This document shows, one piece after another, positions 4,119 through 50,291 of a DNA stretch of 64,000 nt. Source of the DNA: Onthophagus taurus. Lineage: Eukaryota > Arthropoda > Insecta > Coleoptera > Scarabaeidae. The DNA lies in the NCBI RefSeq assembly GCF_036711975.1, contig NC_091966.1, forward strand, positions 26,109,501 through 26,173,500, written 5' to 3'. Each line of letters starts with the position of its first letter. The first letter of the stretch is position 1. The notes under the pieces are model-generated. The model did not search any database. It had not been told where the DNA came from and was given only the letters and a program-made list of their open reading frames with translations. A program made the position numbers and the translations under genes.

Positions 4119-4170
4119 CTACTACGACTTCATTTCTTGTTAATCTCCCGTTCAAGTATCACCCGTCAGC

Positions 4171-4872: not shown

Positions 4873-4935
4873 AACCATTGACTTTACGACTGCATGCTCA
4901 GTCTCTGTGCGATCATTACACTATCACGTTGAACT

Positions 4936-6096: not shown

Positions 6097-6142
6097 GGGT
6101 ATATAAACTTTTTTCTGTTTCTGTGACGCTTCAGAAGCCAAT

Positions 6143-6550
6143 ATGCCTTTAAACCGTTTTGGTGAACATGGTTCTACATCTATCGATAAATTTGGTAAGC
6201 ATGTTCACCACCATGTTATACAGAACCACATAGCAAGATCCGAAGTTCTACAACCTTCATCAACATTTATTTTAACTTTACGTGGTGATGGAGATGTTGA
6301 TCCAAAAACAAAACTTTATAAAATCACAAACAAAAGTGGAATTACGGATTACATCAATTCTTTCTACGAAGGTATGATAAAAGATGTTGTAAAGTCCGCT
6401 CATGTTCAGTTACTTGTTAACGATATCGTTATTAAGTCGCTCCAGGGAGTCCAACTCAAACGCGGAGATACCATTAAGTGTAAAAATAATGCACCGATAG
6501 GAGGACTACCTTTTCTTGTAGAGTTGTTGATTGAAGGGGTTGTAGAGTAA
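6143..6550 (+). CDS. Small conserved protein of the Polinton-type element, 135 aa
   Basis: The frame encodes a small protein with a His-rich N-terminus (GKHVHHHVIQNH) and a beta-rich remainder. Its stop codon overlaps the start of the integrase gene by one base (TAATG at 6548-6552), an arrangement suited to termination-reinitiation or a shared transcript. It sits 46 bases after the previous gene. Such small beta-rich proteins in these elements may be minor virion components, but nothing here proves it. Confidence 0.6.
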   Translation: MPLNRFGEHGSTSIDKFGKHVHHHVIQNHIARSEVLQPSSTFILTLRGDGDVDPKTKLYKITNKSGITDYINSFYEGMIKDVVKSAHVQLLVNDIVIKSLQGVQLKRGDTIKCKNNAPIGGLPFLVELLIEGVVE

Positions 6551-7485
6551 TGGTTAGTGTTAAGCGAGATCTCGTTAACGAACTACATGCACCTGCGAGA
6601 CGACATTATCGGCGACGCCGCGTTCTGCTTCACGGACTATTGGATCTTTATCAAGCTGATTTGGTTGAAATGATCCCATATGCGTCGGTCAATAAAGGTT
6701 ACAAGTATATACTGACTGTTATCAACGCTTTTTCAAAATACGCATGGGCCTTACCACTCAAAACCAAAACTGGGAAAGAGGTTACTCAAGCTATGAAGGA
6801 CATTTTGCATAGTAAAAAGAATATTACTCCGAGCAACTTACAAACCGATAATGGGAAAGAGTTTTACAATAGCGATTTTCAAAAATTAATGGAACAACTT
6901 AACATTAATCATTACAGCACCTATTCCACTTTAAAAAGCTCGATTATCGAACGGTTTAATAGAACCCTAAAAAATAAAATGTGGAAAGAATTTAGTATGC
7001 AAGGAAATTATCGCTGGTTAGACTTACTACCCAAATTACTAAAATCTTACAACAACACAATACATCGCACCATTCACATGAAACCTTCAGCTGTTAATCG
7101 ACGAAATGAATCTGCTCTGTTAAATACTGTATACAATTCCATTAAAGTTGTCGACCCCAACCACCATAAATTTAATGTGGGGGAACACGTGCGAATTAGC
7201 AAGTACAGACACGCTTTTGCTAAAGGTTACCAACCAACTTGGTCCAATGAAATTTTCACCATAGCGACAGTTCAAAATACTAATCCCAGGACTTACCTTA
7301 TTAAAGATGGTAGAGGAGAACCCATTCTTGGAGCATTTTACGACGAAGAATTACAACGTGTGAAACACCCGGATGTATTTTTAATTGAAAAAGTTCTTCG
7401 TCGAAAAGGAAATAAAGTCCGAGTGAAATGGTTGGGAATGGATAGCTCTCATAATTCTTGGATTGCAAAAAAGGATGTATTATAA
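6550..7485 (+). CDS. Retroviral-type integrase with C-terminal chromodomain
   Basis: The product (311 residues) is a DDE integrase that would insert the element into host DNA. The catalytic acids are visible at D37 (YQADLVEM), D100 (LQTDNGKEF) and E134 (IIERFNRTLK), with 33 residues between the second D and the E. An SH3-like C-terminal region follows, then a chromodomain (about 275-311) with WLGMDSSHNSWI. Chromodomains can direct insertion to particular chromatin. The frame begins at the ATG inside TAATG overlapping the preceding stop. The usual Arg-rich region before the core is present (residues 17-25). The frame is intact, so the enzyme may be active. Confidence 0.92.
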   Translation: MVSVKRDLVNELHAPARRHYRRRRVLLHGLLDLYQADLVEMIPYASVNKGYKYILTVINAFSKYAWALPLKTKTGKEVTQAMKDILHSKKNITPSNLQTDNGKEFYNSDFQKLMEQLNINHYSTYSTLKSSIIERFNRTLKNKMWKEFSMQGNYRWLDLLPKLLKSYNNTIHRTIHMKPSAVNRRNESALLNTVYNSIKVVDPNHHKFNVGEHVRISKYRHAFAKGYQPTWSNEIFTIATVQNTNPRTYLIKDGRGEPILGAFYDEELQRVKHPDVFLIEKVLRRKGNKVRVKWLGMDSSHNSWIAKKDVL

Positions 7486-7637
7486 TTTTTACACTAAGAA
7501 AATAAAAAACTTTTTTTTTAATTTCGTTGATTTTATTTCAAGTAACCTTTTTAACAACCTACTTTCTACTTTATATACAAGTTTTGTGATACAAGCAAGT
7601 ATTTTTTTTTTTTACAAATTAACTGATCGCAATTTAA

Positions 7638-10600
7638 CTAGCCATACATGTTTACGTTTAACAACTCCAATAAGTTGTCCAAAAGATCTTCCCTGCGTAG
7701 ATCTTCAATAAGATAGTTTCCCCAAGCTAACGTATGACATCCATCCTCCATCACGTAACGTTTATCGTCATGTGCAGAGAGCGCCACTTTATTCTTTAGT
7801 TCTGTATACATCGTGTGATAGGAGGAGCGAAAGACATACATCTTTTTTCGCACAGAACCTCCATCTTCGATAATCCGTTTATATTCTGAAACACTTAAGT
7901 TTTTATCGATAACATACTTTTTCACACCCTTGGCACGCTTGACAACTCCTTCCAAAGTGTTAATACAATAAGCTTTAGCTCCTGTACCATAAAACGATGT
8001 TAATATCGTATTTGGGTACTCATCTTTCATTTTTCCAACTATCGGCGGCCCTGGAGGAATATTATGTCTGTTGTTTAACTTGTAATTAGAGGTATCGAAC
8101 ATCTCTATATTTTCTTTGATATCCTGGTATACATTCTCAGTAAATATTTCGAGAATTAACGAATCCGTATCTGTATATAACAATAATACGTTTTCACCAT
8201 ATTTCTCTTTTAAAAAATTATAAAAAAAGTTATAAATGACCGCTTTCGACAATTCCAGTACGCTAAACCCTACATACAGAGGTTTGTTATATTTGACCTC
8301 CACCTTCTGCATTTCAATGGCTGCCAAATTATGGCAGAAAATTTTCGATGACTTGAAAGTCGGCTTTGCGATAAGAGCTTCTGCACCGGGTCTCCTGTAA
8401 CGATTCTCCCAATGTGACACTAATCGTATATCGACTCTATTTTCAACATTTTCCATCGTTTTCCCATACACGATATTATTCATTTGTTTATAATGATTTT
8501 TCCCAAATTCATTCGTAGCATTCATTCGTTTCTCAGAGTTAAAATCGATATATGGTTTCATCCACGGCGATTGTTGAAATTGCAATGCACGGTGTATTTT
8601 GGTTAGCTTAAGACCTTTTTTCACACATTCACGTAGGTTTACATAGTGAATTATGTATTTCGATTTATTTTGTAAGTTCGCAATCAACTTAGGATGCTTC
8701 GATCCGGGAGCGATTATGTTTTCGGGACAAAACGGTAGATCATCATGCTGGTTGTGTAACCTTTCGGGATACTCCAAATCCACTTCAAAGACATAACCAA
8801 GGTGTTCATCATCTAAACACTCCACATCTATATCTGCTATTTCTTGGTTCGACAACCATCGAAAACCGCCTGTTGGTAATTTACAACTCATTGCATACCC
8901 ATACAAATTGGTAGCATCCAAGTATAGAATATATGATGATGGTTTTTCCGGGTTAAAATCGTCAAGGAACTTGTTGTTTGCTATTGCAGATCGTTTTACA
9001 CACATACAGAGACCGCCTCTAATTCCTTTCTTAAAAAAGTGTAACATGTCAATGTCTGATAACAATTCTAATTTTACACCTGTCATTTTTAACAGAGCAT
9101 CCCACCCAAACCCGGGCGCAGTATAATAATGGCAAGGATCCAGATTGTAATTCTCCAAAGATATTGTCCTGAAATTTTCAAAGACGTCAGTCAACATTAA
9201 CACATCTGACGTCAAATACAGGTCACTGTATTCTCCCAACGTTGTACACTTAAATTTATTCCATACAGTCTGTGCTCTAGAGTATTGTTCCTTTGAAATA
9301 TTACTTGAACTCAATATGTCGTAAAACTGTGTATGATCAGGCAATTTACTATACTCCAACTTTTCAAACGAATCTACGAACGAATATGGAAATACACCTT
9401 TCTGGCGCATCAATCTAAATTCTTCAGAGTCTTTGAATTTTTTTTTCACTTCCACACAATCCTTATCATCCAAATATGAAACCAACTTTTCCAAAGAACT
9501 CGCCATAAATCTAAACGAGTCGACGAATCTTATTTTCATAAACACTTTGCGTTTCTTTCCCTTGTTATCGGTTGTTTCTCCGACAACTATTTTTTTGGAA
9601 AAAGAAATATATTTTTCTTTGTTTTGTGCTATCACCTCTACTTCCTCCTTGTTTAGGGCAATACTTTTCACAAACATGTGGGCATCGTAATTCGACAGGT
9701 TGTGGAAAAACACAGGGATAAACATCGGTAATTTATAATTTATATTGCAGACGGAATGCGCAGGACCCCTATACAATCCTGTCAAGTGATCGTGATCACA
9801 CACTTTCTCTTCTTTGTTTATTGGTTTATCACAAATGTGACATACGGAACTCAGTTCATGTACAAATTGGTCCAGACAGCTTAGCGGTATCATATCCTTT
9901 GTTTGCCTCAAATGTTGTTTATAGATCTCTATTACATCCTTCTCCAATCTTATAATAAATTCCAGAGCAGCGTTTCGCCCTCGGTATATTCGGAATTTCG
10001 ATAAGTTATCATCGTAAGCACACTTAATGTAGTACGCAAACGCGTATGGTTCGTGTTCAAAACATCGGGCCGTATATGGTTTATTATCATCGTAAACTTT
10101 TCCTTCTTCGGGCGTTAAGGGTTTCAGAATCGCCTCGAAATCGGCGTACACCACAAACGGAACTTTCATTTTTTTTTCAAATCCTTCAAATTGTAAAACA
10201 TTTTCCTTTTCTAGATGTCCGAACTTATTCACTTTTATTTGTTCGCTTGGTACTGTTGCTTTCACTTTTTTACAGTCATCCATCTGATGTCGTACCAACT
10301 TGTCTTCAGTTGAAAAGTATTGCAAACAACCCTCACAAATATATCTTTGATGTTCATGAGTCGATGATTGTGTATTTATCAGTCGAGATAAGTTTTTTAT
10401 CCAACAATAGTGGTTATTCCCGAAATTGTCGCTGACTACTAATAAGTTTACATGACGCTCCCGTTTCTGTTTACATATACATACAGTTACAATATCATCT
10501 ACCATTTTCTCTCCATTATACCAAGAATTTATACCATAGACGTTAATTGAAATGTTATTTTCTTCCTCAAATTTTGGTATGTCTCTGATGGGTACTGGGA

Positions 10601-11476
10601 ATGTTACGCAGTCAAACTTTAATTCTGTTTCCCTATAATCTGGGTATGATGATATTCTTTGCGGTAAACCTGTGGGTTGGTACAGCGCGGACATCAGTGC
10701 CCAAGCAAAGCACTTATTATCGTTATTTTGCACATTTATTACCGCTCTCTTCCCTTTTATGGATGTCGGTAAGTCGATGTAGCTCGATGCTCTTGTAGGA
10801 TTAAACTTGTTACAGTTCACTTCAAGATATAATATTTCCAACAAGGTCCAACCTGCAGTATTAACGCCTTTAGTTTCGCATTTTACTACTTTTCTATTCT
10901 TATACTCTTACCTGAGTCCCGTTCTTGGAATTCCGACATTTTCACCATAATCTCGTCCATAAAGTCCTCGTATGTTTGGTACAAGTCTACGGCTACTGTT
11001 ATAATTTTATTTTTTGTGTTGAATGATTTGATTTCCACTTCTTCCTTCGTATTTATGAAATACAATCCAAAAATTTCCGTATTCACTTTTAAACTACCAT
11101 TTACATTCCTCACGGACTGTATCAAACTGATAACTTTTTCTCTAATTCGGTTACTGAATTCCTTCATGTCTACGTACTTCCGTTCATGATCGCTCACTCT
11201 AAAACTACATATTTTATCTCCAAATATCGAATCTATTTTTTCTACACCATCATCTATTATTACGAAGGCTTTCTGTTTATGTTTGTTGCTGCGCAGATGT
11301 GAGGAATAACATTGTCTGGTTACGTGTTCATCACATATTTCACACACTATAACATCTCCTTGTTGATCCTCTTCCACCTTTCGACGTTTCCCAATACATG
11401 CTGTGCGTTGATGTCTCACAAGATTATCTGGTCTAGTAAACTCTTTGTAACACACGTCGCAGGTCAACATGTTCAC
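7638..11476 (-). CDS. Protein-primed family B DNA polymerase, two exons
   Basis: Exon 1 (11476-10912) encodes 188 residues with two C2H2-type fingers (CDVCYKEF..., CEICDEHV...). A 59-base intron (10911-10853) begins GTAAGAG and ends CTGCAG. Exon 2 (10852-7638) supplies the rest, giving 1259 residues in one frame. Exonuclease motifs are seen (VYADFEA at about residue 426, FHNLSNYDAH at about 578, YLTSDVLML). An inserted Cys/His HNH-type region has CHICDKP and CDHDHLTG (about 526-560). Polymerase motifs are ILYLDATNLYG, NNIVYGK and LYTDTDS. This polymerase copies the element from protein-primed ends. The splice restores a Gly-Trp-Thr-Leu-Leu junction that I remember as typical of the family. 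All catalytic residues expected are present and no stop interrupts either exon. Confidence 0.92.
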
Positions 11477-11569
11477 AACACTCTTACTTCAATACTGTTG
11501 AACACGATTTTCTATCTGCTATTTAAAGCATACCTCCTCCGAAGTGGGGTTTTCAATGAACTCACGTCG

Positions 11570-32964: not shown

Positions 32965-35900
32965 ATGATGAATCCCCCCAAAGGAGGACATAGCTGCGTT
33001 GTTCGAAGTTGTAAATCCAGATCAGTTGACAAAAATATTCGTTTCTTTCGTCTACCCAAAGAACGTTCAAGGTACAGGCGCAATATGAATTCACGAAACG
33101 ATTTAAATAAGATTTAAAAAGAATGATATTAAAATCTAAAGAATTACAATGTAAATATTAGATTAAATCACTAAAGAATAAAGATACAGGAGTAATAGAT
33201 TAAACTTTTGCATTGATTATAAAATCAATATTTATCTACATATTTGTTTTTAAATTGTTTAAAATTATCAATTAACATTAATTATAAGTTAAAACAATGC
33301 TTGATTTTAAAACTAAAACATTTTTACTCTTTTTCAGAGCAATGGCTTGGTTACAAGCTTCAAATCGAATGGATTTAAAAGAAAAATCATCAATAGATCT
33401 GTATAAGAATTATAAGATTTGTGCTTTACATTTTAAAAAATGCATGTATACAAGTCCAGAAAAAAATCGACTATTACCAACCGCAACTCCAACAGAATTT
33501 GATAATGCTAAAACTTATTACTGTAAAAGATCACATTCCCCATCTCCAGAAGATTCTGCCAAACACCTTAAACTATCATCAGGTTGTTTTTGAATTTAAT
33601 GTTAACTTATAGTGTGAACAATATTTGTCTATTCTGTTTTTAGATGATACCACTCAAGTTGCTACAACTTCCGACCACACTTATCATAAAATATTAAACA
33701 CTCAAGTCCAAGAAAAGTTAGATAAACTAATATCAAATTTAGCAGGTTTTATATCAAATAAAATTTATAATTAATGAAATAGGAATGAAAAATATTTCAG
33801 AATCTGGACCCACCACACCAAAATCTGTTGTGACAAATTCTGGACCCACTATATCAAAATCAAGTATAACTTCAAAACCTAAGCCTTCTATATTAAAATC
33901 TGTACTAACTGCATCAAATAAACCAGTAGAAACTATAGATTTGACAGCAAATCAAGGTATTAAACACTAATTAACAATTAATTATTAAATAAATTAGATT
34001 AATTTTAGATTCTGAGCCAATCAAAAAATGCCAATCAGAAACATCTAAAGTAACTCAAGGTCTAAAATCATATTTACTTAGTAAGTATTAGTCATTTAAT
34101 GAATAGTGTAATACATACAAAATATTGCAGTTCCTAAGGAATTTGTGCATTTTTTACCAAAACGGGAAACGTTTGTTTTACCATCATGTTTACCAGGTAA
34201 GTACTAAAAATTTTAAATTCAAAACTAAAACTTGTTGAAAAAAGGAAATAGATGGCATCATATATATGATATTGTATATTATGTATTTTGGTGTTCAGAA
34301 TGCCATCCCTTTCTTTTTAATATTCCACAGGTGTATCTGAATGACTGCAACAAACTTCAAGGGGTGATTCTTTAGTGAATTTTAAGGGTACTGTGATATA
34401 TGAACCCTAAGGAGCTACACCCTTCTCAAAAAGGCGGAAAATTTTGATTTAATTTTTTTTTCTCAAAAACCATAAACGCTACGAAAACGAAATTTGGGGA
34501 ATTTGTTTTACTCATAATAGGGCACGTTTTGACCCTATTTGTACTTTCAACCTACCCATATATTAAAGTACCCCATGAAGTTTGTTGCAGTCATTCAGAT
34601 ACAGCTTGCCTGTATATACTGCATGTTTCTAAATTGATGTGAAAGATTTCAAGGGATGATTTCTCAGCAAAAATTAAGGGGATCTTTCATATAACTTTTT
34701 GTTCAAAACCCCTTCCCCACCAAATTACAGCCCTCTAAAGTTAGGGAGAAAACTTGTTTTTATTTAATAAATTCACTATGGAGGAATTTAGAAGAATGAA
34801 ATTTGGCAGATAACTATTACTAATAAAATGACACGATTTTTATAATCCTAAAATGTTATTACAAGAGCATGAAACAATCAACCCTTATAATACTTTGCAT
34901 CAGAACTTTTTAATGCGTCTACATATTTCTATTTAAAAATTTGATTTAAATAGTGGGATTCAATACGCAATATTTTGTCTCTTAACATTCTCTCCCGAAA
35001 TCGTTAGTTTACCATAAAAAAATAAAATAATACTCATTGTCAGACCTATTTGACAAAAATTCAGATTGATTATTTATTTAAAAATATCAAGGTGTCAGTG
35101 GATTTGGCCGCCCTTGCCTAAATAAAAGTGTAAAAAAAAGTGTCCTTTCCGAAATGCACTTTGATTTATTTCTATTTATTTATTGAATAAGTTGCAAATT
35201 TCAAACTAACAAATATGAATTTGTTAAAAATTTATTAAAATTCTTTTCGGATTTTCAAAGCGATATAAAGATTTGGATACATAACAATTAAATTGCTGTT
35301 TAAAATATATTTCAAAACTTCATAAGGTGTATCACCTGGGTTTAAAAGTTTTGAAATAATACTCAACTCTTCCGCCAGGTGAATACCGTCGATGTATTTT
35401 CTATTGTTATGTTTAAGAGTAATCTCCAAATTCATTCTTTGCTTTATGACGTCCTGTTTTTCCCAATTTCTTAGGTCGGCAAGATTGTGCAAAAATCCGA
35501 ATATATGTTGAAAACGCTCCTCTATTGAATGCATCGCTATTTTAAGTAAATTAAAATATACATCAACTTTAAATTTTTGTGACGGATCTTGTATTGGGTT
35601 GTCAAAAGTATCATTATTGAAATTGCGTTCTGATTTCTGTAAAGTTTGGTTGTACGTTTATTGAATTTGCAGAATTTGAAATTCAGACGCTATAACTAAC
35701 AATTTTTGATACTCTTCGTCACTTCTCAGTTTTTTTAGATTATTTGCAAGCTGTTCAATTATTTCAACTGTCGCACAAACCGTACACCTTGGGCTTTGTA
35801 GTAGAAGATTTACTCTGTTAACATCTAAAAGTACATTGCATACATTGCTATTTATACCAAATTATTGTAATGCATATGGCCTGATAATTTAACTTCTCTA

Positions 35901-38900
35901 TATGTGTGAATTGTCAATTACTTTAAACACCATATATCCTTCCAACCTATGTACACAATTAATAATAGAAAAGATTTTGTTGAAAAATTGAATACTATCA
36001 CTTTGCCAAAAGATAATAAAATCTTCTCTTTTGTCATTACGAATCTCTATACGAATATACCTGTAAAAGAGACCCTCGCCTTAATTCAGGATATCCTTGA
36101 TCAAAAAATAGAGGATAAACATGAAAAAACGAACATCATGAAATTGTTTAAAATATGCGTTGAAAATGATTTTTGCAGGTTTAATGGTGAAATATATAAG
36201 TATAAAAAAGGCCTTCCTATGGGGTCTCCTCTAAGTTGCTTGTTGGTGGATGTTTTTCTTGATAGATTGGAAAGAAATTTCATAATTAATAACAAAAATC
36301 CGTACAATGAGAACATTATTACTTGGTTGAGATACTTAGATGACGTTATTGTAATATATGATACGTCTGATCCAAAATATATAAATAATTTACATACATA
36401 CATAAATAAACTTCATCAAAACATAATTTTTACAATGGAGATCGAACAGAATAATACTATGAATTTCTTGGATTTAATTTTGACCAAGTTAAATGATTCA
36501 TTATTCAATATATCGAAAACCTACCCAAACCAATATCATAATACCCTATCACTCATATCACGACAAGAAACAAAAAATGTCAGCTTATCACGCCTATCTA
36601 CATCGTGCATATAATTCCAATATTGATGAAGAATATTTAAGGAACGAACTAGAAATTATAAAACAAATAGCCACTCAAAATAATTTTCCTAGTACATCAG
36701 TCGATAAACTTATAAAGATGTATAAAAACAAACAAAACATGCTTCATAATACAGCCCTTCAAGAAATAGGATCACAACAATAAACACCTATAGATCTATA
36801 TTTCTATATCATATCAAGGCAATATTTCACATCAACTGAAAAAGTTATTTAAACAATATGATGTACATCTTACATTTAAAACAAACACAACGCTACATAG
36901 AACACTAGTGAATTGTAAAGATAGAACAGCAAAATTAGACAACAGTGGTATTTATAAACTTGAATGTGGTTCATGCTCTGCCACATATGTGGGAGAAACT
37001 GATAGAGCTGTGAAAGAAAGAATATATGAACATAAAAAGAAACCTAACTTGAATTTTTGTCGACATCTACAAGAACTAAACCATCAGTTTGATGAAAATG
37101 AAAATGTGGAAATTCTACATAAACTAAAGAAGGGATATCTCATGGAAATAACAGAGTTGTACGAGATAAATAAGTTTATACATAACAATCCAGAAAAAAT
37201 GTGTTTAAACGATCAAATTTTGCCAACATGTCAACCTTTGTACCTCTGTTTAAACAATCAATTTTTGCAACAAAAAAAACACCAAACATAAGTTAAAAGA
37301 ATTTTAAAAAATCAAGATTTAAATACACAAACCGGTCTCGCCTACAAGAACAAAAGTTGCCATAAAATACCAACCACGAATAAAATTACCCAAATTCCCT
37401 TCAGTATAAAAGAAAGTAAAAATACCCTTCTCTAATATTTTATTTTATTGTGTTACTTATAGTTTTATATTAAACTACGTCGATGTTTATAGTGTGTAGT
37501 GTTCGTTCATTCATGTTGATCTTTTAGTATAACTGACGTAAGTGAAACAAAATGAAAAAAAAAAGTTTCATTAATTGTATTTACTTCTCTATTTTAACGT
37601 GAATGGTTATATATTGTAAAATGTTATTTTTATCCGTAGGTGATTACCTTGATAACGGTTTAATAAACCGAAACCGGTAGGAATCAAAAACAAAATAAAA
37701 ACATCAAGAAGTATAAAATTAACAAGTTTTATTACATTCTATTATATAATCTTGATGAATAATGGAAAATTTACAACACATGTTCTCTATATATATTATC
37801 TCTTCTTCTATAATGCATGTTTCTACTTTAGTATTATTTCCATGAAAACCCAGCAAAGACGTGTCTTATACAATACCAAAAAGTGACGGGACAACAATCT
37901 AACGGGCCTGATCGCATTTATCCTACTTTCCCATCTCGTAGAACATACAGGTTTTAATGTTAAATTAGTCAGATATTTGACAAGAATAGACCATCTATAA
38001 GTGGATGCAGAAAAAAAATAATACAAGCTTTGTATTATCTATGTATTAATTAATTTTAATTCTGTAGCATCATTTAAAACAAGATTAATAGAGTGACAGG
38101 AGCAAGGAACAAATAACGCTCTCGAATTTATATTTGAAATATTTTTGGTAGTCCGTTATTCTTACCTTTCATATTGGCTCCACAATTTTTTTTTAATCGA
38201 CGGGAAATCGCTCAAGTAAGCCGTTACAAATAAAAAAAAGTGCGGAAACGTGTAAAACTTACCGAAAAATCACTTTTTATTTCACCAGTTTCGATGTGAC
38301 GTCACTTTTTGTGACGTCATCGACCGTTCTAACCATATATTTTCGCGGCACATTTCTAGGTCTAGTGTTAGTTCTAGTTTTAAATGTTATTTAGCGTCAG
38401 ATTGTGGTAAGTTGTTATTTTGTCCGTGTTATTTTTCTATCTCTTGCGAACTAAAAACAGTTATTACTTAAGTAAATGCAATGGCAAACTACACAAATAC
38501 CGAAATGCAAGTAAATGCATTTTGTATATGGTCGTGCGAATGGAAATGGGTTAGAAGTTCGAAGACTTTACGCTGAGTTATATCTAGAACGTCTTCGAGA
38601 AGATGGACATTTTTCAAGAAGAACTGCCGATTGCGCACGTTCACGAGAAGTACGAACTGTAGCACTAGAGGAAGAAGTTCTTGATTTAATTGAGGACTCT
38701 CCCGGAACTAGTACAAGAAAAATTGCTCAAGAATTAAACGTAACTATTCCAGCGTATTTAGGATTTTAAAAGAACAACTGTTGTATCCTTATCATTTACA
38801 ATGAGTTCAAGCGTTCTTACCGCGGGATTTTTTACCAATGGTTTCTTCAAATGGTTACTCAAACACCGCAATTCTTATCAAAAGAATCCATTAGAAATTT

Positions 38901-41900
38901 CCTCTCATATGGTCTGAAGAAAATCCACATAAAATTGTTGAATGCAAGTTTCAACACCAATTTTCATTAAATGTGTGGCTTGGTGTTATTGACAATGATT
39001 TAATTGGACCATATTTTCTTCCAACGAGATTAAATGGAGACGCATACTGTCATTTCCTCGAAGAGGAGATGAGAATTATGGAGAATTATTACGCTCGCCG
39101 CTACTTAGACGAAGTTTATACAAATCGTTGGATACACCGCGGTGGTCCTCAGAATTGGCCAGCCAGATCTCCAGAATTAAATCCATTAGATTTTTGTATT
39201 TTGGTTTTCTTAAAACGTTGGTTTGTTCAACTCCTCTTGAAAATATCAATGATTTACGGAATCGCATCATGTCAAACTATTAGGAATACACCAAGATTAT
39301 TTGTAACAATACGAAATTCCGTGAGGCGAAGGGTAGAATCGTGCGTTGCTGCCGAGGGGCGGCATTTTCAACATTTATTATGACTTATTATTGATATTTT
39401 GTTAACGTTGTTATTGTTTGTTTTCGTAGTTTTGTTAATTGTTATTAGTACTACAATTATTATTGTGATATTTCTTAATTTACATATTTTTTCAACTAAA
39501 TAGTAAATGCCATTCTTTCAATAAAACTTCATTCAGTTGTTCAAAATGTTTTCAGTCCATTGCATAAAACTCTAGAAATTTTAATAATTAGGCTGAATTT
39601 ATGCCATATGTGTATTATTTTTTTGTGTGTTTAAACTAACAATTTTGTGAGAAAATGTCAAAAGACAATTATGTTGGAAATTGAATTCGTCTTTTTAAAT
39701 CAAGTTTTTAAATAAAAGATTGTAGACACATTCAAAATTTCTACTGTAAACTATTATAAGGGATGAAGTTTTCAACCCCACATTATTGTTCAATTTGTTA
39801 TTGTGATATTTCTTAATTTACAATAAGTAAGTACTATCTTCAGCTAAATAGAAAATGCCATTCTTTCAATAAAATCTTATTTAGTTGTGCAGAATGTTTT
39901 CAGTCCATACGTATAAGACTCTATAGAAATTTGAGAAATTTTTTTGTGATCAAATTAATAATTTTAGGAAAAAATGTTAAGAGACAAAAAAGTTGCGTAT
40001 TGAATCCCACTATTTAAATCAAGTTTTTAAATAGAACAATGTAGACGCATTGAAAAGTTCTGATGCAAAATATTATAGGGGTTGATGTTTCACCCCCTTG
40101 TAATAACATTTTATGGTTACAAAATCGTCAAAAGGTATGATTTTATTACCAACAGTTATCTGCCAAATTTCATTCTTCTAAATTCTTCCATAGTGGATTT
40201 ATTAAATAAAAACAATTTTTTCCCATAACTTTAGAGGGCTGTAACTTGGAGCAAAAGGGGTTTTGAACAAAAAGCTATATGAAAGACACCCCTTAATTTT
40301 CGCTGACAAATCATCCCTTATAATCTTTCGCGTGAATTTAGAAACACCTGTATATAAAATATATAATTTTACTTAACAAAACTTGAGAATTGTCAACAAT
40401 TTCAGCTCCTCAACATTTCTTGCAATTTACATCTGAGCCACCGAAGAAAACTGTAAATTCAACGTCTATACCAGGTATTTTTTGTTTTACTTGAGAATTT
40501 TTAAAACATTGGATGTATAAACATTACAATTAAATTTACAACAACATACAAGGTGAGATAGAATCGTTTGAGATAGAAGAAAAAAATGTTTTATACAAAA
40601 CTTGTTCGACTCACCACTTTCATAACGTAAAATTATTTTCATTTATACAGGGTGTTGCATTTAGGCGTATTTAGGCAAGTACGTAATTTTTTTTAATGTA
40701 ACACCCCGTATGTTTCATCGTATTATGATTATAACTAAATTTGTTTATCCAACCATATATGTTCAGCGTTAATAGTTCCGGCGATATTCCAATGTTTCAA
40801 TTCAAAGATTGTTTAAATTTATGTTTCAAGTAACTCCGCCAGAACCACCAAAGACCATTCTAAATTCGACAGCATGTATTCCAGGTATGATTATATTTAT
40901 GTAAAGAAAGAACAGCACTATCAGTGTACTAAACTTTTCGAATTGATGCGTATCGTTTCGTACTCATTTACTGCATCATTTGATTCTTTCGTAACGAAAT
41001 ATCATGAGTGGTAACTTAATGCACATAATATGTTTCAGTTCCTAGTGGTCACATAAGTTGTCCACCAGAATCTCCTCAGAAGACTATAAATTCGACATCG
41101 TCTCTACCAGGTATTATTTTATATCTTACGAAACTAGGAAAATACCACTATATTGTTATTATTAAGATATTAAGTACACAATTGCGCAGTACTATTTTAA
41201 AAATTTTCATTACAAAAAAATCAGATTCTTGGCACTCGGTGAAAAGATTTTTTGATAAGAAAGTGTAATAGGGTCTCGTGAATTTTAACTTTTACTCAAA
41301 AATTATTTTCTCTGTGAACTACGAATTCCGAGGGATGAAGTATAGCACTTCAAAAATTACGGTACAGAAAATCGCCAGGCTCAGATAATGACGCACCGGA
41401 AATGCTAAAATTCACTGGGAACAAGAGTATTACTTTCTTACACCGAATTGTGGGAAACTGGTAAATGGCCAGAAGAATGGGCGAAATCTGTTTATATTAT
41501 TATATAAGTTGAATGCAGTAATTATAGTACTATTGCTCTGATAAATCACGCAAGCAAAATATTACTGCATATCATACAGAAAAGGCTCAAAACTTACCAT
41601 CTCCTCAATATACCCCTAGAATAAGCAAGCTTTGTGCCAGGACGAGGCACAAGAAATCAAATTTTACACCTAAGGTAGATGATTGAAAAAATTTATGAAT
41701 ATAATCTCGCTCCTCCAGAAAACAGGACTACAGAAGGCTTTCGACATGGTACACTGAAATAAATTTTGGCACATTTTAAAATAAAAATAAGAAATTAATA
41801 TTCAAGATACTGTAAAGCAGGAAAAGTCTTAAGGCAGGGTTGCATTTTCTTGCTAATACTATTAGGTAGTACATTGATAGATTAATAGATTGTAGATTGA

Positions 41901-44900
41901 AAGGGTGGAATATCTAATGGAGGGAAAAGGATCTCGAACCTTCTACGCAGTGACACTGTCACAACAGCTATAGATGAACAAGAAATATTAGAAGTCTTAC
42001 AACGAATCGAACAAGAAAGCCTGGAGTGCGAACTGCGATGGAATAGATCTAAATACCACTTGGTAATTATAGACTGGGCGGGTACCTCCACTATTGCAGC
42101 TGCATAACATACAGGTGCAGATAAGATTTTCTATCTGGGCACGAAAGTAACAAATAGAGGTGTCTCAGGAAAAGTAGTAAAGAGAAGAATCGGAATGGCA
42201 AAGGGGCTTTGGGGGGACTGGTTAAAATATGGAAAGACCACCGTATCCACAAAGTAACTAAAACAAGATTTTTGACATCTTTAGTGTTCCTTTAGTGATC
42301 CATATGGCTCAGAATCCTGGACCATAAATACTGTATGCCAAAGACGGATTGAAGCTTTTGAAATGATATATTATCGAAGAATGTTCTAAAAGAACTAAAA
42401 ATACATGATAATGAGATATTAAAACCAGCGTCGCATACTTCAATTCTTCGGTCATGGTCATTCAATATACATAGAAGGACGGCATGGAAAAACTTATGAT
42501 GTATCCCCTATATACGTACTATAGAAGACATTGTCCGAAATTGGACAACGACTGATGGGAGAGAGATGCACTTCAGTTTATATAGTATTGCCGAAATGAT
42601 ATTTAGTATCTAAAATGTATACAGAAAGGCATATATTTTAGATACTATAAATAGTATATAAAATAATGAATAAATAATCAAAATCAAAAATTAGGTGTAT
42701 AATGCAACTGTAAGGTCGCGTGAGGTTTTAAAAAACCGAGTTAGAAATTGTATTACCCAAATATCTCTGCAGGAATTACGTCGAGTTGTTAGATCGACAG
42801 TACGGAAGATACAATTATGTCAAAATCGAGGCGGCATTTTGAAAATTTAGAAAATTCGTTTTTTTGAACTTATTGAATTAAATTTAGTTGTTTTTTCGTG
42901 TTTTTCTTTTAAAACTGATTTAATACAACTGTTAATTTACACCATTATTAAAAAAGAACCACTGACTAAAGCATAGCAGTGATCACTGCTCGAGAAATAG
43001 CAAATCAAGAGGAACATAACGTAGTTTATACTATTAACCTAGTTACTATGCGTCAAATGTTGTAATATATTTTCCGAAGGTACAAAAACGTTAAAAAACA
43101 ATAAATAATTTTTTTTTTAAATTATAAGCGATCGTGAAAATTTTTTCATGTAAAAGTTATGTGAAAGTATGCTGTCTACCCAACTGATGAAAAAAAATTA
43201 TAGATTTAAAAAAAAAGCGAAATTAGCACTCACATGCGGTATGCACCGGTAGCACAAAGAGAATGATTTCATGTCGTAATAATCCGTTTTAAGGGCCTAA
43301 TTATGCATTCCAAATGGTTTTCTTATATCATTAATAATTTTAAAAAAATGGGGGTGAGCCATTTCTGAGGGACACCCGGTATTAACCAATTTATTTTAAA
43401 TTAATAATATCTTTCAGCTCCTACATCTTCCATGACAGGTCTACCCGAAAGAACTAAAAAGACACATGGTACGTATATTCATAATTTTACAAACAAAACA
43501 TTTAGTAAAAAATATCATTTCTGCCCAGAATATGAATTGTTAACTTTTTGAGAACACCTTACATTATTAGAACACATAAGGCACTTATATATTATATTTT
43601 TGGCGATCTTTCTACGCTTTTGGTTTCTAATCGAGCTTTCAATAATGGCTCTATTAACAGAAAGGCCATGTCATTAATAAATTTTCTTTTATTCATTCGG
43701 TCATTGGTATGTACAAAATTACCGTATTTTCTCGAATCTTATCCGCACTCGAATCTAATCCGCACCTCGATTTTAAAAATGCAATGTTGGTAAAAAAAAG
43801 TTGGTTTTCCAATGTAATCCACATCCGATTGTAATCCGCATTTGATTTTAGAGCATACAAAATTTGTAAAAAGGGTGCGGATTAGATTCGAGAAAATACG
43901 GTAAGTAACATGCTAGCAATTATTTCATTATGATGTAACATTCCATAGCAAAATCTTCGGGCGCTCTCGCTGTTGTATAAGTGCGGCACAGTTTATCAAA
44001 TGTGTCAGCAACCCCGTTGGTGTCACAGCAGTGCATAGCTGATATCAGAAGTACAATTTTGTTCTTTTTTGGGACATAAGAAAGAAGAGTTTTATTACTG
44101 TCAAACGCAAATGTGCATCAACCTCCTGTTTTTCTATTTAGAAATGTTTGAAGAGGTCTATAGAAGAAAAATAATTGTCAACAGTAATATTTCGTCCCGT
44201 CCGATGAAATTATTGGTTCTGAAAGCTTTCTTACATAATATGATGAAAATGACTCGTTACGCTCCGTCAACACTTTTCCTACATATGGAATTGCGTTGAT
44301 CATATACCAAGTTCTAGAGTCATTCATCATTACTATTTTAAAACCGTACTTAACAGGTTTAGATGCTAGGTAGATACGGATCGAACATGTACCTCTGTAT
44401 CCTATCAGCTGTTCATCTATAGTGCAATACGAGTGCATAAAATTTATGACAATTTGAAATAAATGTGTCTCGGATTTTCCTAATAGAAGCAAATTTTTGT
44501 CAATACGCATACATAATGATAAAAGCTTGAAGCGACTGAAGAGAGAGAAAGAGATTTATATACTATTACCGAAATGATATTTAGTATACCTGTTTGAATA
44601 TATTTCTGATATAATATAAATATATAGAATAATTAATAAATAAATATAAAAAGATCAAATTACCGTTTAATACTTCTTTACTTATTTCAGCATCCAACCT
44701 CTTTATGAGATACGCACCAGAACCACCTAAGCAACCCCCGAAGTCAACATCATCTCTACAAGGTACGTTTAGCTTAAGAAAGAAGCAGGACACGTTATAA
44801 TCTACAACACAACCTCCTTCTTCCTTAAGTGGAAAAGCAAATAGCAAACATACCGGGTGTTTAAAAATTGTGTTCCGATATTTTACCCACTTATAGTTCT

Positions 44901-47900
44901 CATTACGATAAACAAAAAAAAAGTCTTAGTAAACTTAGGTCCTAAAATCAATTGTGCAGAGATGCAGAAATGGCAGACATGCACTTTATGTACGGTGAAA
45001 CTTACCCCAACCGTACCTTATCTAGTGATAAATTTTTCTCAAAATTACATCAACGTTTGTCGGAAGTGGGTTCTTTTAAAACAACTCATAACGATGCTGG
45101 TCGACCTCGATGTTTTGAGAAGGGTTAAAGAAAATCCAGGTACGAGTGTAAAAAGCATCTCTGCTGCAGTAAACATTAATGCCTCTCTAGTTTAGAAAAT
45201 TTTACGTCAGCAACAATTGTATCCTTACCATGTTCAACGAGTACAAGAACTTGTCGTTTCTAACTACGTTTCGAGAAGTGCATTTTGTGAAGTTATGTTG
45301 CAGAAGTTTGCAGAAAATCCGATATTTCATGCTAGTGTTTTATTCACTGACGAAGCTGCTTTTACAAAAGGCGGAATTTTGAATTTTCATAACAATCACA
45401 TTTGGGCGGATGAAAATCCTCACGCTGTTGTGCAATCAAGAAGTCAGTATAATTGTAATTGTTGTTTTGTCTTCTTAACATCGTGTGATATTGGATATGA
45501 AGGTTAAATTATTATTATTATTTTTTAAATAATTTAACCTTCATATCCAAGTCAGTATAAGTTTACTGTAAATGTTTGGCTTGGTATACATATTTGGTGA
45601 CGATTGATAGGACCAACTATTCTTCCTAATCGCTTAACTTGTGAAACTTATTTGGACTTTATGCAAAACACTTTGCAGAAAGACTTTTAAAATCATTAGT
45701 GTATTCAGCACTTGTTAATAACTTGGAGGATCTCCAGCAAAGAATACAAAACACATGTGAGACTATTCGTTAATCTCCAGAAGTCTTCGAACTAGTGCGC
45801 AATTCTTTTGTACGAAGATGTCAAGCATGTCTTCAAATGGAGGGAAGTCATGTAGAGCATTTACTTTAAGCATTTTGTGTTCAGTTTTTATGGTCTGTTT
45901 GTATTTTCTCCAATTAAATAAACATTTGAAGACCAAGACGCTTAATTAATGACACTAATTAATGAAACTCCATTTTGTTTATCTTGATGAGAACTATAAG
46001 TGGGAAAAATATCCGAACACAATTTTTAAACACCCGGTATATTAACCAGTTTATTTTAAAATTAATAATATATTTCAGCTCCTACATCTTCCATGACAGG
46101 TTTACAAGAAGGAACTAAAAAAACACATGGTGCGTATATTAATAATTATAATAATCTTTATATATCTATTTTATATGATATTTTAACAAATCCTTAGCAA
46201 GATAGCAGCCCGGAGTTTTCTCCCATGCGTTTAGGAATTTTTTGTAGTCTTTTCATGGTTACCAGCGCCACCTCCTGAATATGTAGGTCTAGCGGTGGCA
46301 GATCGCAGCGCACCTGTAACAAAAAGACACGCGAGTCTCTGTATCCTATTTAGCGCGGTGATGGCGGTGGACTTAGAAGTTCTATTCCACCATACCACCG
46401 CACCGTAAGTTAGCATTGGTCGGATTACAGCCGTGTAAATTCATAGGGCTATCTTGGGGGACAACCCCCAAGTCCTCCCAACACCCCTGCGGCATTGGCC
46501 GTAAGCGAAGCATGGTTTTTTTTACTCTATTATCTAGGTGGGATTTCCACGATAACTTGTTGTCTAAAATTAAGCCCAAGTACTTAACCTCTGTAGACAG
46601 TTTATGTGGAGTGTTAGCGAGCATTGGCAGTTTGGGGTTGCCTATGTTGCGCATGCGTGTAAAATAACCATCTCTATCTTCTTGGGATTGACGGAGAAGG
46701 ATTGTTTAATACACCAGTTTTCAGTTATATTGAGTGCTTCCTGCATCCTCTCAAGGAGTACATTGACGTACTTCCCTCGAATGAGGATTGCCAGGTCGTC
46801 TGTGTAGCCAACGGTTTTAAAACCAGCTAGTTTTAGGCGTTTCATCAGGCTATCCAGGGTGAGATTCCACACAAGTGGAGAAAGAACCCCCCTTGCCCAA
46901 GGCCTCGTTTATTGCGGAGAAGGTGGTTCTGTCAAAAGCGCCTAGAACACATAAGGCACTTATATATATTTTAAGCGATCTTTCTACGCTTTTGACTTCT
47001 AACCGAGCTTTCAGTAATGCCTCTATTAGCAGAAAGGTCAGGTCATTAATAAATTTTCTCCTATTCATTTTGTAATTGGTATGTGTGAAATTAAGTAATA
47101 TGGTAGCATTTATTCCATTATGATCTAACATTTCATTATGATCTAACATTCCATTATGCTCTAACATTCCATAGCAAAATCTTATAGGCCATGTTCGGGT
47201 CGCTCTTACTGTTGTATAAGTGCGGCACTGTTTATCAAATGTCTTTTTATTAATTAATAATGCCTTTTATTAATTGAAATCATTACATTATCTATAACTT
47301 AATAATGAAAGTATAAGTATACAGGGCGTAGTTAAGGACCTAAGTCCTTCTCTTCCACTCAACCCTGTTTTATACACAAACATAAACCAAAAAAAAAAAA
47401 CAAAATTAATAAACAAATGACAAAAAAAAACAAATATTCTTAAAAATAAAACCAAGAGACAAAGGGTTATAAACTAAAAATAACTATAGAAAACTAATCT
47501 ATAATACGGAAAAACAAAACAAAAATATTCCCTTTTCTATATCGTGCCTACATCTTACGTTAAAATTTTAATTATAGTACTCACTCATCATAACAAAGTC
47601 TGGTCACTGAATAAAGCAAATCTCAAGTTGCGTGCAAATACCGCTGGTGGTGCCGATTTTAAAGTTCCCGGTAGGGGATTGTAAAGCTTCGGGAGGGTGA
47701 AAGTAAATGCTCTTTGAAATAGTGCTGTTGCATGCTGCGGAGGAGAAATTTCTAACATTTAGATTGTGAATATCCGTTCTGAACCTTATCTTATCACTTA
47801 AATAACGTGGTTCTCGCAACATTAAAAGTTTATGCTAAAAAGTAAGCAATCTAAACTTTCTTCTATTAGCCATGTTTAACCAGCCAGCAACCTATAACAA

Positions 47901-50291
47901 ATGAGAAACATGTTCTCGTCGTCTAAGTTTATAAATCATTCGTAAACAGGAATTTTGTACCCGCTGTATTCGACATGCCGTACCAGTATCAAGACAAGGA
48001 CCATATACAGTACTACCATAATCAAAATTACTAAGTATTAAACTGTCGCATAATCTTATCTTATTTGATGTCGTCAACAAATATCTCCTGGCATATATCA
48101 TTTTCAAAGCAGCAAACGATTTCCCAACTTTACTAGTAATATGTTCACGGAATCTTAAATCGCTATCAAGCATTAAACCCAAGTTGCGAGACGTATCACT
48201 GATCTTTCTTGGTTTCTTGTTAATACTTCATACGTGCTTTTTGTCTCCCAAAGAGCATCACCACAGACTTGTTTGGGTTTATACTCAGTCAATGTTCTGT
48301 GGATATGTCAATCAAACTACGTATATCACTCTCAAGCGTTAACCTAGCCGAGGTTATATTTTCAGGAGGAAACGATAAATAAATTTGCGAGTCATCTGCG
48401 TAGAAGTGCACCTCGGAGTTTGATAATGTTCTAAGAAAATCACAGGTATATATACAATATAAAAGAGGCCCCGGTATTGAACCTTGTGGAACTCCAGCTT
48501 GAAGTTGTTTTGGTGTGGACAATACATTGTGCAATTTGACAATCTGACACCTATCATTCGTAGCTCGATATCAACGCTTTAGTGTCAGTAATCCCTTTGG
48601 TGTCATTATAATCCATTCAATTAATGGATTTAAATCCTAGTTGCATCATTTATACTGTCATAGCGCTACATAGCTGATGGCAGAAGTACGACTCTGTTGT
48701 TTTTTGGGACATAAGAAAGGAGAGTTTTATTACTGTCAAACTCAAATGTGCACCAACCTCCTTGCTTTTCTTGAAAACGACAATGTTTTTTAAAAAATAA
48801 TAAGATTAAAAAAGTTTTAGAATTAAATTCTATATGAAATGAAGTAATAATGTATTAAATCCGTCAAAAGGTTAAAAAATTCTGTCAAAATTTAGGGGAC
48901 CATCACCCTTAATCAACCCTTTGAAATGCCACAATGGGTGTCAACTTGCTACCAATTAATACCCTCGGTACACTCATAACGTATACCAAATTTGGTTTTT
49001 CTAGCTTAATGTATTACGAAGATATTCAATGTTTTAAAATTTTAAGACCCAAATTTGAAAGCCTATAACTCTTCAGGGGTACAACTTAGTATGGAGATAA
49101 GTTGCGTTAAATCATCTGTCCCTGCTCTGTGTCGGTTCTTATGTGAATCAGCCTGTATTTCTGATATAATTTAAATATATAAAATAATTAATAAATAAAT
49201 ATAAAAGTATCAAATTGACGTTTAATACTTTTTACTTATTTCAGCATCCAATCTTTTCATGAGATACGCACCAGAAAAACCTAAGCAACCCTCGAAGTCA
49301 ACATTATCTCCACAAGGTACGTTTGTCTTAAGATAGAAGCAGGTCACGTTATAATCTACAACACAACCTCTTCTTCCTTAAGTGGAAAAATAAATGGCAA
49401 ATATATATTAACCAGTTTATTTTAAAATTAATAATATATTTCAGTTTCTACATTTTCCTTGATAGATTTACAGGAAAGAACTAAAAAAGCACATGGTACG
49501 TATTTTCACAATTTTATAAATGAAATCATTCAGTAATAAATAAACTGTTTATAGCACAAACCCAAACTTCAGTAGGTCTAACGTCATCTCTGCCCAAAAT
49601 TATAAGACAAACCAAGACAATAAAATCTTTATATCAAAAAAATGTGAGACTTCAAAAATTATTGAATAATAAGACTGCACCAAAACCAACATTAGAGATG
49701 TTTAGTAAATACTGTGATACGTTCTTAACGCCACCAATGGCCGAATTTGTTAAAACACAAGCTCAACTTTGTAAAGTTTCCGAACATGGTCGACGTTATA
49801 ATGATGAATACAAAGAATTTGCTGAAAAAATGTATTCATTAGGACCACGCTGTTATAAATATTTACAAAAACTTTTTTGTTTGCCATCAATAAAATCATT
49901 ACAACGTGACAAACTGAAAAATTTACAGGATCAGGAAAATGGAAACTTACCGCAACAACCCCCAGTAGAATCATTACATCATGTAACAAAAGAAATAAAG
50001 TGTTTACCGTCACTTAATAACGAAGAGTTACAACAAACTACATCCTGTATTAACAAACCTTTAGTTCAACACATAAAATATTTTCCGGCACTTAATAGTG
50101 AACAAATAGAACCGATTCAAATATCATTTGAACCTATAATTCAACAAATCGAGAATGTAATTAATATTAATGAAAAGGTACAACCGGTAGTTATTGAAAC
50201 GATAAATCATTTATCGGATAATGAACAATTAGAACAAGCAATAAAATCATTAGAACCAATGACATGTTTACCGGATCTTACCGAATTATAA
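32965..50291 (+). CDS. THAP-domain gene with phase-1 repeat-exon ladder and P-element/THAP9-like C-terminal exon
   Basis: Fifteen exons: 32965-33071, 33338-33582, 33644-33745, 33801-33956, 34009-34080, 34131-34196, 40406-40474, 40831-40884, 41039-41110, 43418-43468, 44691-44762, 46079-46129, 49245-49316, 49445-49495, 49555-50291. Every intron has GT...AG ends and phases agree, giving 658 residues. The THAP zinc finger uses C11, C16, C64 and H67, with RLP, W40 and LLPTATP also conserved, so it should bind DNA. Exons 3-14 encode a Pro/Ser/Thr/Lys-rich linker built from repeats. The last exon has LYQKNVRLQKLL (coiled coil) and GRRYNDEYKEFAEKMYSLG with FCLPSIKSLQ, the helical region preceding the catalytic core in P-element/THAP9 proteins. 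No RNase H core follows, so a domesticated regulator is likely. AATAAA lies at 50304-50309. Exon 8 has the weakest acceptor. Confidence 0.8.
34327..34614. repeat. MITE with about 33-bp terminal inverted repeats
   Basis: CAGGTGTATCTGAATGACTG at the left end is matched inverted by CAGTCATTCAGATACAGCTTG at the right (quoted in part). No coding capacity. It lies in intron 6 of the THAP gene. Confidence 0.75.
35225..35860 (-). mobile_element. hAT-type transposase C-terminal relic
   Basis: Leftward translation gives VDVYFNLLKIAMHSIEERFQ and ISKLLNPGDTPYEVLKYI with YPNLYIALKI. This is the pattern of hAT transposases with zf-MYM/TTF ends just before their dimerisation region. The final motif and the catalytic acids are not seen. 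It ends at a stop at 35235. Confidence 0.6.
35880..37420 (+). mobile_element. Penelope-like element: reverse transcriptase plus GIY-YIG endonuclease, frame-broken
   Basis: The frame 35949-36530 contains SFVITNLYTNIPVKETL, KGLPMGSPLSCLLVDVF and WLRYLDDVIVI, the Penelope reverse transcriptase palm. After a frameshift near 36490 the frame 36493-36783 continues with YSIYRKPTQTNIIIPYHSYH and HAYLHRAYN. A further frame 36908-37291 has SGIYKLECGSCSATYVGETD, the GIY-YIG endonuclease. The 5' part is missing. The element lies inside intron 6 of the THAP gene, in the same orientation. Confidence 0.88.
38280..39545 (+). mobile_element. Tc1/mariner-superfamily transposase relic
   Basis: The N-terminal part (38515-38769) has GLEVRRLYAELYLERL, DGHFSRRTADCARSREVRT and TSTRKIAQELNVT, a helix-turn-helix DNA-binding region. 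After frame breaks, 38950-39200 gives SLNVWLGVIDNDLIGPYFLP and WPARSPELNPLDF, the last catalytic region of the superfamily. Several stops prevent a functional product. Confidence 0.8.
40406..41110 (+). repeat. Three paralogous THAP-gene mini-exons (exons 7, 8, 9)
   Basis: Exons 40406-40474, 40831-40884 and 41039-41110 each encode a variant of PExPxKTxNSTSxxPG (for example SEPPKKTVNSTSIPG, PEPPKTILNSTACIPG, PESPQKTINSTSSLPG) and each ends CCAG before GT. They are clear duplicates. Exon 6 (34131-34196) and exons 11 and 13 end in the same way and are more distant copies. Confidence 0.85.
41360..42480 (+). mobile_element. Degenerate CR1/RTE-like LINE relic
   Basis: Rightward translation gives WPEEWAKSVYI, ALINHASKILLHIIQKRLKT, ASFVPGRGTRNQILHLR and, further on, DEQEILEVLQRIEQESLECE and FYLGTKVTNRGVSGKVVKR. 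These are reverse transcriptase and post-palm regions in order, with a deletion of the catalytic box region and many stops. It lies in intron 9 of the THAP gene. Confidence 0.75.
42481..43380. other. AT-rich intron sequence ending in a transposon-like terminus
   Basis: No coding frame. The last 30 bases (GCCATTTCTGAGGGACACCCGG) resemble a Tc1/MITE end adjacent to TA. The other end was not located. Confidence 0.4.
43550..44520 (-). mobile_element. piggyBac-type transposase relic, copy 1
   Basis: Leftward translation of 44510-44178 gives SYCTIDEQLIGYRGTCSIRI, LASKPVKYGFKIVMMNDSRT, the region holding two of the piggyBac catalytic Asp residues. Leftward of a stop, FLNRKTGG and FDSNKTLLSYVPKK follow and then the third-Asp region (NGVADTFDKLCRTY). 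The reading frame is broken. It is in THAP intron 10. Confidence 0.85.
44853..46037 (+). mobile_element. Tc1/mariner-superfamily copy with terminal repeats and TA target duplication
   Basis: The ends CCGGGTGTTTAAAAATTGTG and its complement (CACAATTTTTAAACACCCGG) are flanked by TA at 44851-44852 and 46038-46039. Inside, translation gives RRVKENPGTSVKSISAAVNI, LYPYHVQRVQELV, then ASVLFTDEAAFTKGG, the first catalytic Asp region. A short palindromic insertion (45497-45553) and frame shifts follow, so it is inactive. A paralogous site lacking the element exists at about 49395-49407. Confidence 0.85.
46200..46945 (-). mobile_element. R1/jockey-like LINE fragment, internally deleted
   Basis: Leftward translation gives GAFDRTTFSAINEALGKGG, then WNLTLDSLMKRL and VGYTDDLAILIRGKY (palm catalytic box with YTDD in place of YADD), EVKYLGLILDNKLSWKSHL and LTYGAVVWW. 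The segment between the first palm Asp and NLTLDSL is shortened. It interrupts a piggyBac relic in THAP intron 12. Confidence 0.8.
46946..48785 (-). mobile_element. piggyBac-type relic, copy 2, split by a LINE
   Basis: Leftward translation of 47140-46980 gives GINATILLNFTHTNYKMNRR and KFINDLTFLLIEALL, the C-terminal part of the piggyBac transposase. The relic is broken at about 47240 by a LINE and resumes at about 48570-48785 (debris matching the piggyBac copy 1 sequence near 44000-44110). A triplicated 17-base word (ATTATGATCTAACATTC and variants) lies at 47118-47168. Confidence 0.7.
47270..48565 (-). mobile_element. 5'-truncated LINE copy inserted in piggyBac copy 2
   Basis: Leftward translation gives QAGVPQGSIPGPLLYCIYTC and VHFYADDSQIYLSFPP with intact YADD, then GLMLDSDLRFREHI, DSLILSNFDYGSTVYGPCLD and SDKIRFRTDIHNLNVR. 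Sequence and layout match the LINE at 29762-31990, so they belong to one family. Stops are present between the pieces. Confidence 0.85.
48786..49200. other. Intron sequence without gene
   Basis: AT-rich sequence. Bases 49140-49210 match 44600-44660, showing that the segment before each type B exon was duplicated. Confidence 0.6.

Follow-up and report, generated by a model that had tools for sequence, protein, structure and literature searches.

The gene at positions 32965–50291 of the window (the whole 64,000-nucleotide stretch of Onthophagus taurus DNA that was analysed) is probably a P-derived host gene, or nearly one, that is catalytically dead and makes a DNA-binding protein; we put the probability of this reading, which includes a splice-adjustable tether with a putative function, at roughly two in three. 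The predicted protein combines a THAP domain and putative dimerisation parts with a linker four times as long as that of a transposase copy elsewhere in the same genome (C15:3922423–3926137), and for this reason we read it as a P-derived DNA-binding protein whose tether could be shortened by splicing.

The gene model and its annotated isoform

The exons of the gene are as follows, where A-type and B-type refer to two sets of paralogous linker exons described in the next section.

E1: 32965..33071, + strand; start and first half of the THAP domain; phase-2 end, shared with the C15 transposase copy
E2: 33338..33582, + strand; second half of the THAP domain and stem; phase-1 end
E3: 33644..33745, + strand; linker exon of 102 nt in phase 1-1; no paralog detected
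E4: 33801..33956, + strand; linker exon of 156 nt in phase 1-1; no paralog detected
E5: 34009..34080, + strand; linker exon of 72 nt in phase 1-1; no paralog detected
E6: 34131..34196, + strand; linker exon, 66 nt, weakly B-type
E7: 40406..40474, + strand; linker exon, B-type, 69 nt
E8: 40831..40884, + strand; linker exon, B-type, 54 nt
E9: 41039..41110, + strand; linker exon, B-type, 72 nt
E10: 43418..43468, + strand; linker exon, A-type, 51 nt
E11: 44691..44762, + strand; linker exon, B-type, 72 nt
E12: 46079..46129, + strand; linker exon, A-type, 51 nt; missing in isoform X2
E13: 49245..49316, + strand; linker exon, B-type, 72 nt; missing in isoform X2
E14: 49445..49495, + strand; linker exon, A-type, 51 nt
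E15: 49555..50291, + strand; tail with predicted long helix, P-type helix-turn-helix (HTH) and stop codon; a catalytic domain was not found

Scripted splicing of these 15 exons yields 658 codons and a stop in a single frame with GT–AG borders at all 14 introns, and each of the twelve exons E3–E14 (51–156 nt) starts and ends in phase 1, as an earlier note on this DNA had proposed for both the frame and the exons. The coding frame of E3–E14 contains no stops in 284 whole codons, compared with 24 per 296 and 15 per 284 in the two other sense frames, while the most open of the antisense frames contains 9 stops and leaves 7 of the 12 exons open. Intronic control segments bounded by AG and GT at the same lengths were open in phase 1 in 13–52% of cases; the resulting product for the twelve exons, ~5e-7, is exaggerated, as the exons had been chosen for openness and several are duplicates. 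By our own rough splice score, the donors of E2–E4 and the acceptors of E4, E5, E8 and E15 fall clearly below zero. Every exon from E2 to E14 ends in phase 1 with a G or A, so that a junction codon is never a stop and any subset of E3–E14 can be skipped. Computed on the gene model, the frame remains open in 4096 of 4096 skip combinations, which bears out the proposal of a modular linker, and an annotated isoform lacks exactly two exons.

This isoform, the NCBI entry “proteoglycan 4-like isoform X2 [Onthophagus taurus]” (P0001, 617 aa), was the sole match of the full-length protein search, which was capped at 7988 candidates. It equals the 658-aa model minus E12 and E13, letter for letter, with no other skip set of E3–E14 fitting, and its linker measures 255 residues compared with 296 in the full model. 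X2 is itself a gene model, the representative of a database cluster of six member sequences and the only one of them compared; the 658-aa form was not returned by either the full-length or the tail-region protein search. As a rule, NCBI reports several isoforms of a gene mostly on transcript evidence. The skip of E12–E13 is one annotated skip form, as a database record, and the name “proteoglycan 4-like” probably comes from the proline-rich repeats. The family of proteins with varied spacing envisaged in the earlier note is only suggested, by one annotated skip form, and the newest duplicated unit shows little constraint.

Because X2 is the model without E12 and E13, it joins E6 to E7 and E9 to E10, and the two junctions that had been flagged as critical are therefore both present in an annotated gene model. 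These junctions bear on a doubt raised in the earlier note itself, that two unrelated genes with ends near E6 and near E15 are bridged by chance mini-ORFs. Although the E6–E7 intron, 6.2 kb long and filled with repeats, would suit such an arrangement, X2 spans E1–E15 and the order of THAP, mini-exons and HTH is the same in the relatives described below, and we consider two separate genes extremely improbable. The exons absent from X2 also form exactly one duplicated unit, which would agree with a real THAP protein in which E12–E13, and perhaps other exons, are not cassettes: the number of units would vary between individuals, and X2 would reflect copies without one unit or a constitutive omission. 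We judge such variation to be quite unlikely, as the X2 contig is almost equal in length to this chromosome (44,244,632 and 44,240,000), where the E12–E13 unit is present.

Growth and constraint of the linker exons

Comparison of all linker exons with one another gave 14 of 66 pairs with z > 3 relative to 300 shuffles. The pairs fall into a set B comprising E7, E8, E9, E11, E13 and weakly E6, and a set A comprising E10, E12 and E14; none of the 66 pairs over z > 3 links A to B, and E3–E5 have no paralog among the twelve linker exons. The earlier count of at least nine mutually paralogous exons holds in that nine exons have paralogs, but these form two separate sets and not one. The most recent growth is seen in the following segments.

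Copy 1 of the duplicated segment: 43377..44816, + strand; E10, intron and E11
Copy 2 of the duplicated segment: 46038..49370, + strand; E12, longer intron and E13
Partial third copy of the duplicated segment: 49404..49521, + strand; E14

The block of E10, intron and E11 was copied to E12, intron and E13 with the intron DNA included, and E14 is an older partial copy of the same segment. The linker grew partly by tandem duplication, the latest being that of the E10–E11 pair. Pieces of mobile elements, identified by eye, later enlarged the introns of the duplicated units.

Several sequences that resemble mobile elements can be described in the surroundings. An insertion at 44825–46065 in the E11–E12 intron, bounded by an 85% complementary inverted repeat and mariner-like by eye, breaks up a stretch that runs uninterrupted between E13 and E14. 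At 35910–37291, inside the E6–E7 intron, lie frames that by eye look like a Penelope-like reverse transcriptase, and long inverted repeats of 77–92% complementarity occur at both sides of this intron (34624–34976 and 39671–40346); the intron may hold one large nested element. Further upstream, at 4144–11488, several large frames follow one another; by eye they are Maverick/Polinton-like (packaging ATPase, integrase, DNA polymerase B).

Among the older paralogs, E8, E9 and E11 share 26–29 of 42 bases, compared with 12–15 of 40–42 in flanking intron windows (raw, unshuffled counts), a contrast that suggests either exon-wise conservation or exon-sized duplication. The remaining B pairs, other than E11–E13, are alike at 15–25 of 42 ungapped exon bases. 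In the youngest unit, E11 and E13 agree at 64 of 72 bases (four amino-acid changes in 24) compared with 55 of 59 in each flank, and E10 and E12 at 46 of 51 compared with 51 of 57 and 39 of 54 in the flanks. Neither pair has an excess of third-position changes. As the contrast between exon and flank is unclear here, the sequence of the youngest unit is not visibly constrained. For four pairs of 16–23 codons each, NG86 estimates of dN/dS lay between ~0.3 and 2.2; with so few codons, pairwise dN/dS was dropped as a test of selection on the ladder.

P-type relatives in the same genome

The protein matches the Pfam THAP model (PF05485) at residues 11–90 with 54.4 bits (cut-off 23.9) and Tnp_P_element, the P-type HTH, with 24.9 bits (cut-off 23). 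Across the 658 aa there is no Pfam match to an RNase H catalytic domain with GTP-binding insertion, and the catalytic parts of two relatives gave a best E of 0.58 in a tblastn search of the 64-kb window. For the leucine-zipper dimerisation region of P-type transposases, the tail offers a helix predicted with good confidence at its residues 13–38, and what the earlier note called an oligomerising tail corresponds to this predicted helix. Comparison of P0001 with solved structures by phmmer gave no match and Foldseek returned nothing at E ≤ 0.001; a family profile, the rows of which include transposases, matches the P transposase structure 6p5a.

The tail exon has 75 matches in the 290.8 Mb searched, where the gene itself is found at 100% at one locus and the next best matches have 45–46% identity; the nearest relative of the tail shows 47% identity over 118 residues by tblastn. 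RNaseH_N was present in all three tail frames tested (L013, L015, L016) and GBD plus RNaseH_C in the two longer ones, which identifies the relatives as P-type transposases. The copy at C15:3922423–3926137 is an element of 3715 bp whose 24-bp terminal repeats are perfect and which is flanked by a direct repeat of 7 bp, or of 8 bp when one G is counted as shared. Its spliced frame stays open over the 807 residues that were covered, with a tail frame of 702 codons and a linker of 74 aa. The 24-bp repeat occurs 36 times in the genome at ≤ 2 mismatches, compared with 0 for the reversed control, and 0 times in the window at ≤ 3 mismatches, a search with a reach that stops short of more diverged repeats. 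Perfect pairs of this repeat also span exactly 994 bp at C1:32909158–32910151, C2:18124738–18125731 and C11:5610770–5611763; these three are probably short non-autonomous derivatives.

In the C15 copy, the THAP domain is split by a phase-2 intron and the tail starts at the same places as in the window gene, with phase-1 mini-exons between the two. Eight of the tail-matching loci other than the gene itself were fetched with flanks and four of them annotated (L031, L029, L032 and L027), giving 4, 4, 3 and 4 mini-exons, 15 of 15 with a length divisible by three; as the boundaries were picked by eye among AG/GT sites, the phase result in the relatives is partly a matter of choice. Related mini-exon peptides recur in order across the annotated copies. 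The loci L028 and L030 are nearly identical to L031, as is L026 to L027 (95.8–97.6% identity); L026 has a stop within its last mini-exon. A counter-example to the mini-exon linker is provided by L033, a related copy with THAP, linker and HTH within one exon. Two other features of this region were noted: the linker of the P-like L033 (P0014; C11:10665500–10675499) repeats a TQT-containing block (by eye), and L026 and L027 (C8, ~16.26 and 15.41 Mb) carry three tandem pieces of ~59 residues in the exon that ends THAP, which extends the same region by another route, within an exon.

The O. taurus P-type transposases (C15:3922423–3926137 and copies on C8 and C6) thus share with the window gene the phase-2 THAP split, the linker of phase-1 mini-exons, the start of the tail exon and the HTH. 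This common intron layout, together with the THAP and Tnp_P_element matches over cut-off, supports the earlier identification of a fragment of a P/THAP9-type transposase. It also shows that a linker of mini-exons is not confined to this gene, as the four annotated copies have 3–4 phase-1 mini-exons each. The transposases differ in keeping the RNase H and GTP-binding domains and, in the complete copy, the terminal repeats, neither of which was found for the window gene, and in having 3–4 mini-exons (74 aa in the C15 copy) compared with 12 (296 aa). Homology of single window mini-exons to the transposase mini-exons m0–m3 was dropped as not above chance: alignments compared with shuffled ones gave 3 of 180 at p ≤ 0.01, with 1.8 expected. 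The common origin of the linkers therefore rests on position and phase. A gapped comparison of introns between transposase lineages was dropped as uninformative because of the gaps, and a tail-domain tree places the gene weakly (45/59).

A third protein search, which used an alignment of transposases and the gene as query, gave 17 P-type proteins among 6625 candidates. Two of these, from Leptinotarsa and Diabrotica, have THAP and HTH with linkers of 60 and 59 aa (marks picked by eye). The full-length search (capped at 7988 candidates) and the tail-region search (96 candidates) returned only the gene itself and no ortholog. This result, the uninformative NCBI name, the repeat-rich surroundings and the divergence of E11 from E13, as large as that of their introns, would all be in line with a P-type copy in decay that chance transcription brought to the notice of gene prediction, with mini-exon duplications that are neutral debris. 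We nevertheless regard mere decay as unlikely. The 362 codons of E1, E2 and E15 and the 296 linker codons are without stop or frameshift, and the frame is open despite ~47% tail identity to the nearest relative, a divergence that may partly predate domestication. The gene also has single-locus status without mobility parts: there is one 100% locus, the known-family terminal repeat is absent at ≤ 3 mismatches, and genome searches with ladder sequences gave 3, 2 and 8 matches, none of them elsewhere.

A tether of variable length?

These comparisons lead us to favour a P-derived DNA-binding protein that would have originated from a P-type DNA transposon family with a THAP-to-tail linker of about four phase-1 mini-exons, the layout seen in the relatives. 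In the window copy, for which catalytic domain and family terminal repeats were searched and not found, the linker exons would have been multiplied by tandem duplication. By analogy with the P transposase, the THAP domain would bind DNA and the tail helices would pair, separated by a flexible tether rich in Pro, Ser, Thr and Lys with a length that could be set by splicing; subsets of E3–E14 are skippable on paper and the E12–E13 skip is annotated as a record. Its product would probably be a transcription factor or a repressor comparable to the 66-kDa P protein, which is catalytically dead. For this product we infer DNA binding, pairing and repression, as well as tethers of different lengths in use. 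A more speculative scenario, which we hold only tentatively and think rather doubtful, is that the host captured the transposon's mini-exon linker and multiplied it into a splice-tuned ruler, producing graded, catalytically dead, paired DNA-binders with a reach set by the phase-1 exons included, for site pairs at different spacings.

In the available portions of PMC7776569, the Drosophila P element makes a truncated, non-catalysing THAP-headed protein that binds element DNA and represses transposition, with splicing governing its production. This 66-kDa repressor resembles the window gene in truncation, loss of catalysis, N-terminal THAP and dependence on splicing, whereas it arises by retention of the third intron with loss of the C-terminal third and the annotated splicing of the window gene skips linker cassettes. 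The KP repressor is a product of small non-autonomous elements and not of splicing. In the P transposase structure, according to PMC7776569, neither THAP nor most of the dimerisation domain is resolved, presumably because they are flexible, and their mobility is offered as a rationale for pairing ends at distinct spacing. The Anopheles P elements (PMC1562414) likewise are transposases with THAP, leucine zipper and HTH; the accessible text gives them three putative exons, with one reference element having an extra intron in exon 2, and notes no mini-exon linker. From these partial sources, the beetle P-type element genes with their six to seven exons stand apart from the four reading frames of Drosophila (PMC7776569) and the mostly three-exon genes of Anopheles (PMC1562414).

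Human THAP9, as far as the partial sources go, is like the window gene in stemming from a P-type transposase. The P neogenes of Drosophila also derive from P-type transposases, and we know of no exon ladder of this kind in either. A THAP gene with an exon ladder was not found in the literature at the level of titles and abstract openings, most subscription papers being outside reach. To this extent the claim that no THAP gene built this way has been described stands, but the mini-exon linker as such is common to P-type copies of the same genome. Each of the ingredients (THAP genes, P-derived genes, splice-set tethers) is already known; at that level of the literature, their combination and beetle P elements with mini-exon linkers are apparently undescribed. 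The PEVK exons of titin are symmetric. According to the available parts of PMC11040099, PEVK is an extensible stretch built from many exons (112–225), and splicing sets its length through their inclusion, as proposed for the window linker; it is an unrelated muscle spring, in contrast to a predicted DNA-binding protein.

The window gene indicates how transposase domestication can add modularity, as the transposon's symmetric phase-1 mini-exons in a flexible linker let the host resize a protein by duplication or skipping with the frame kept. If the isoforms are real, they would offer a natural test of linker length against DNA-site selection by paired THAP proteins. Of 189 THAP candidates in the O. 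taurus genome, 150 were scored, giving a minimum of 133 matches.
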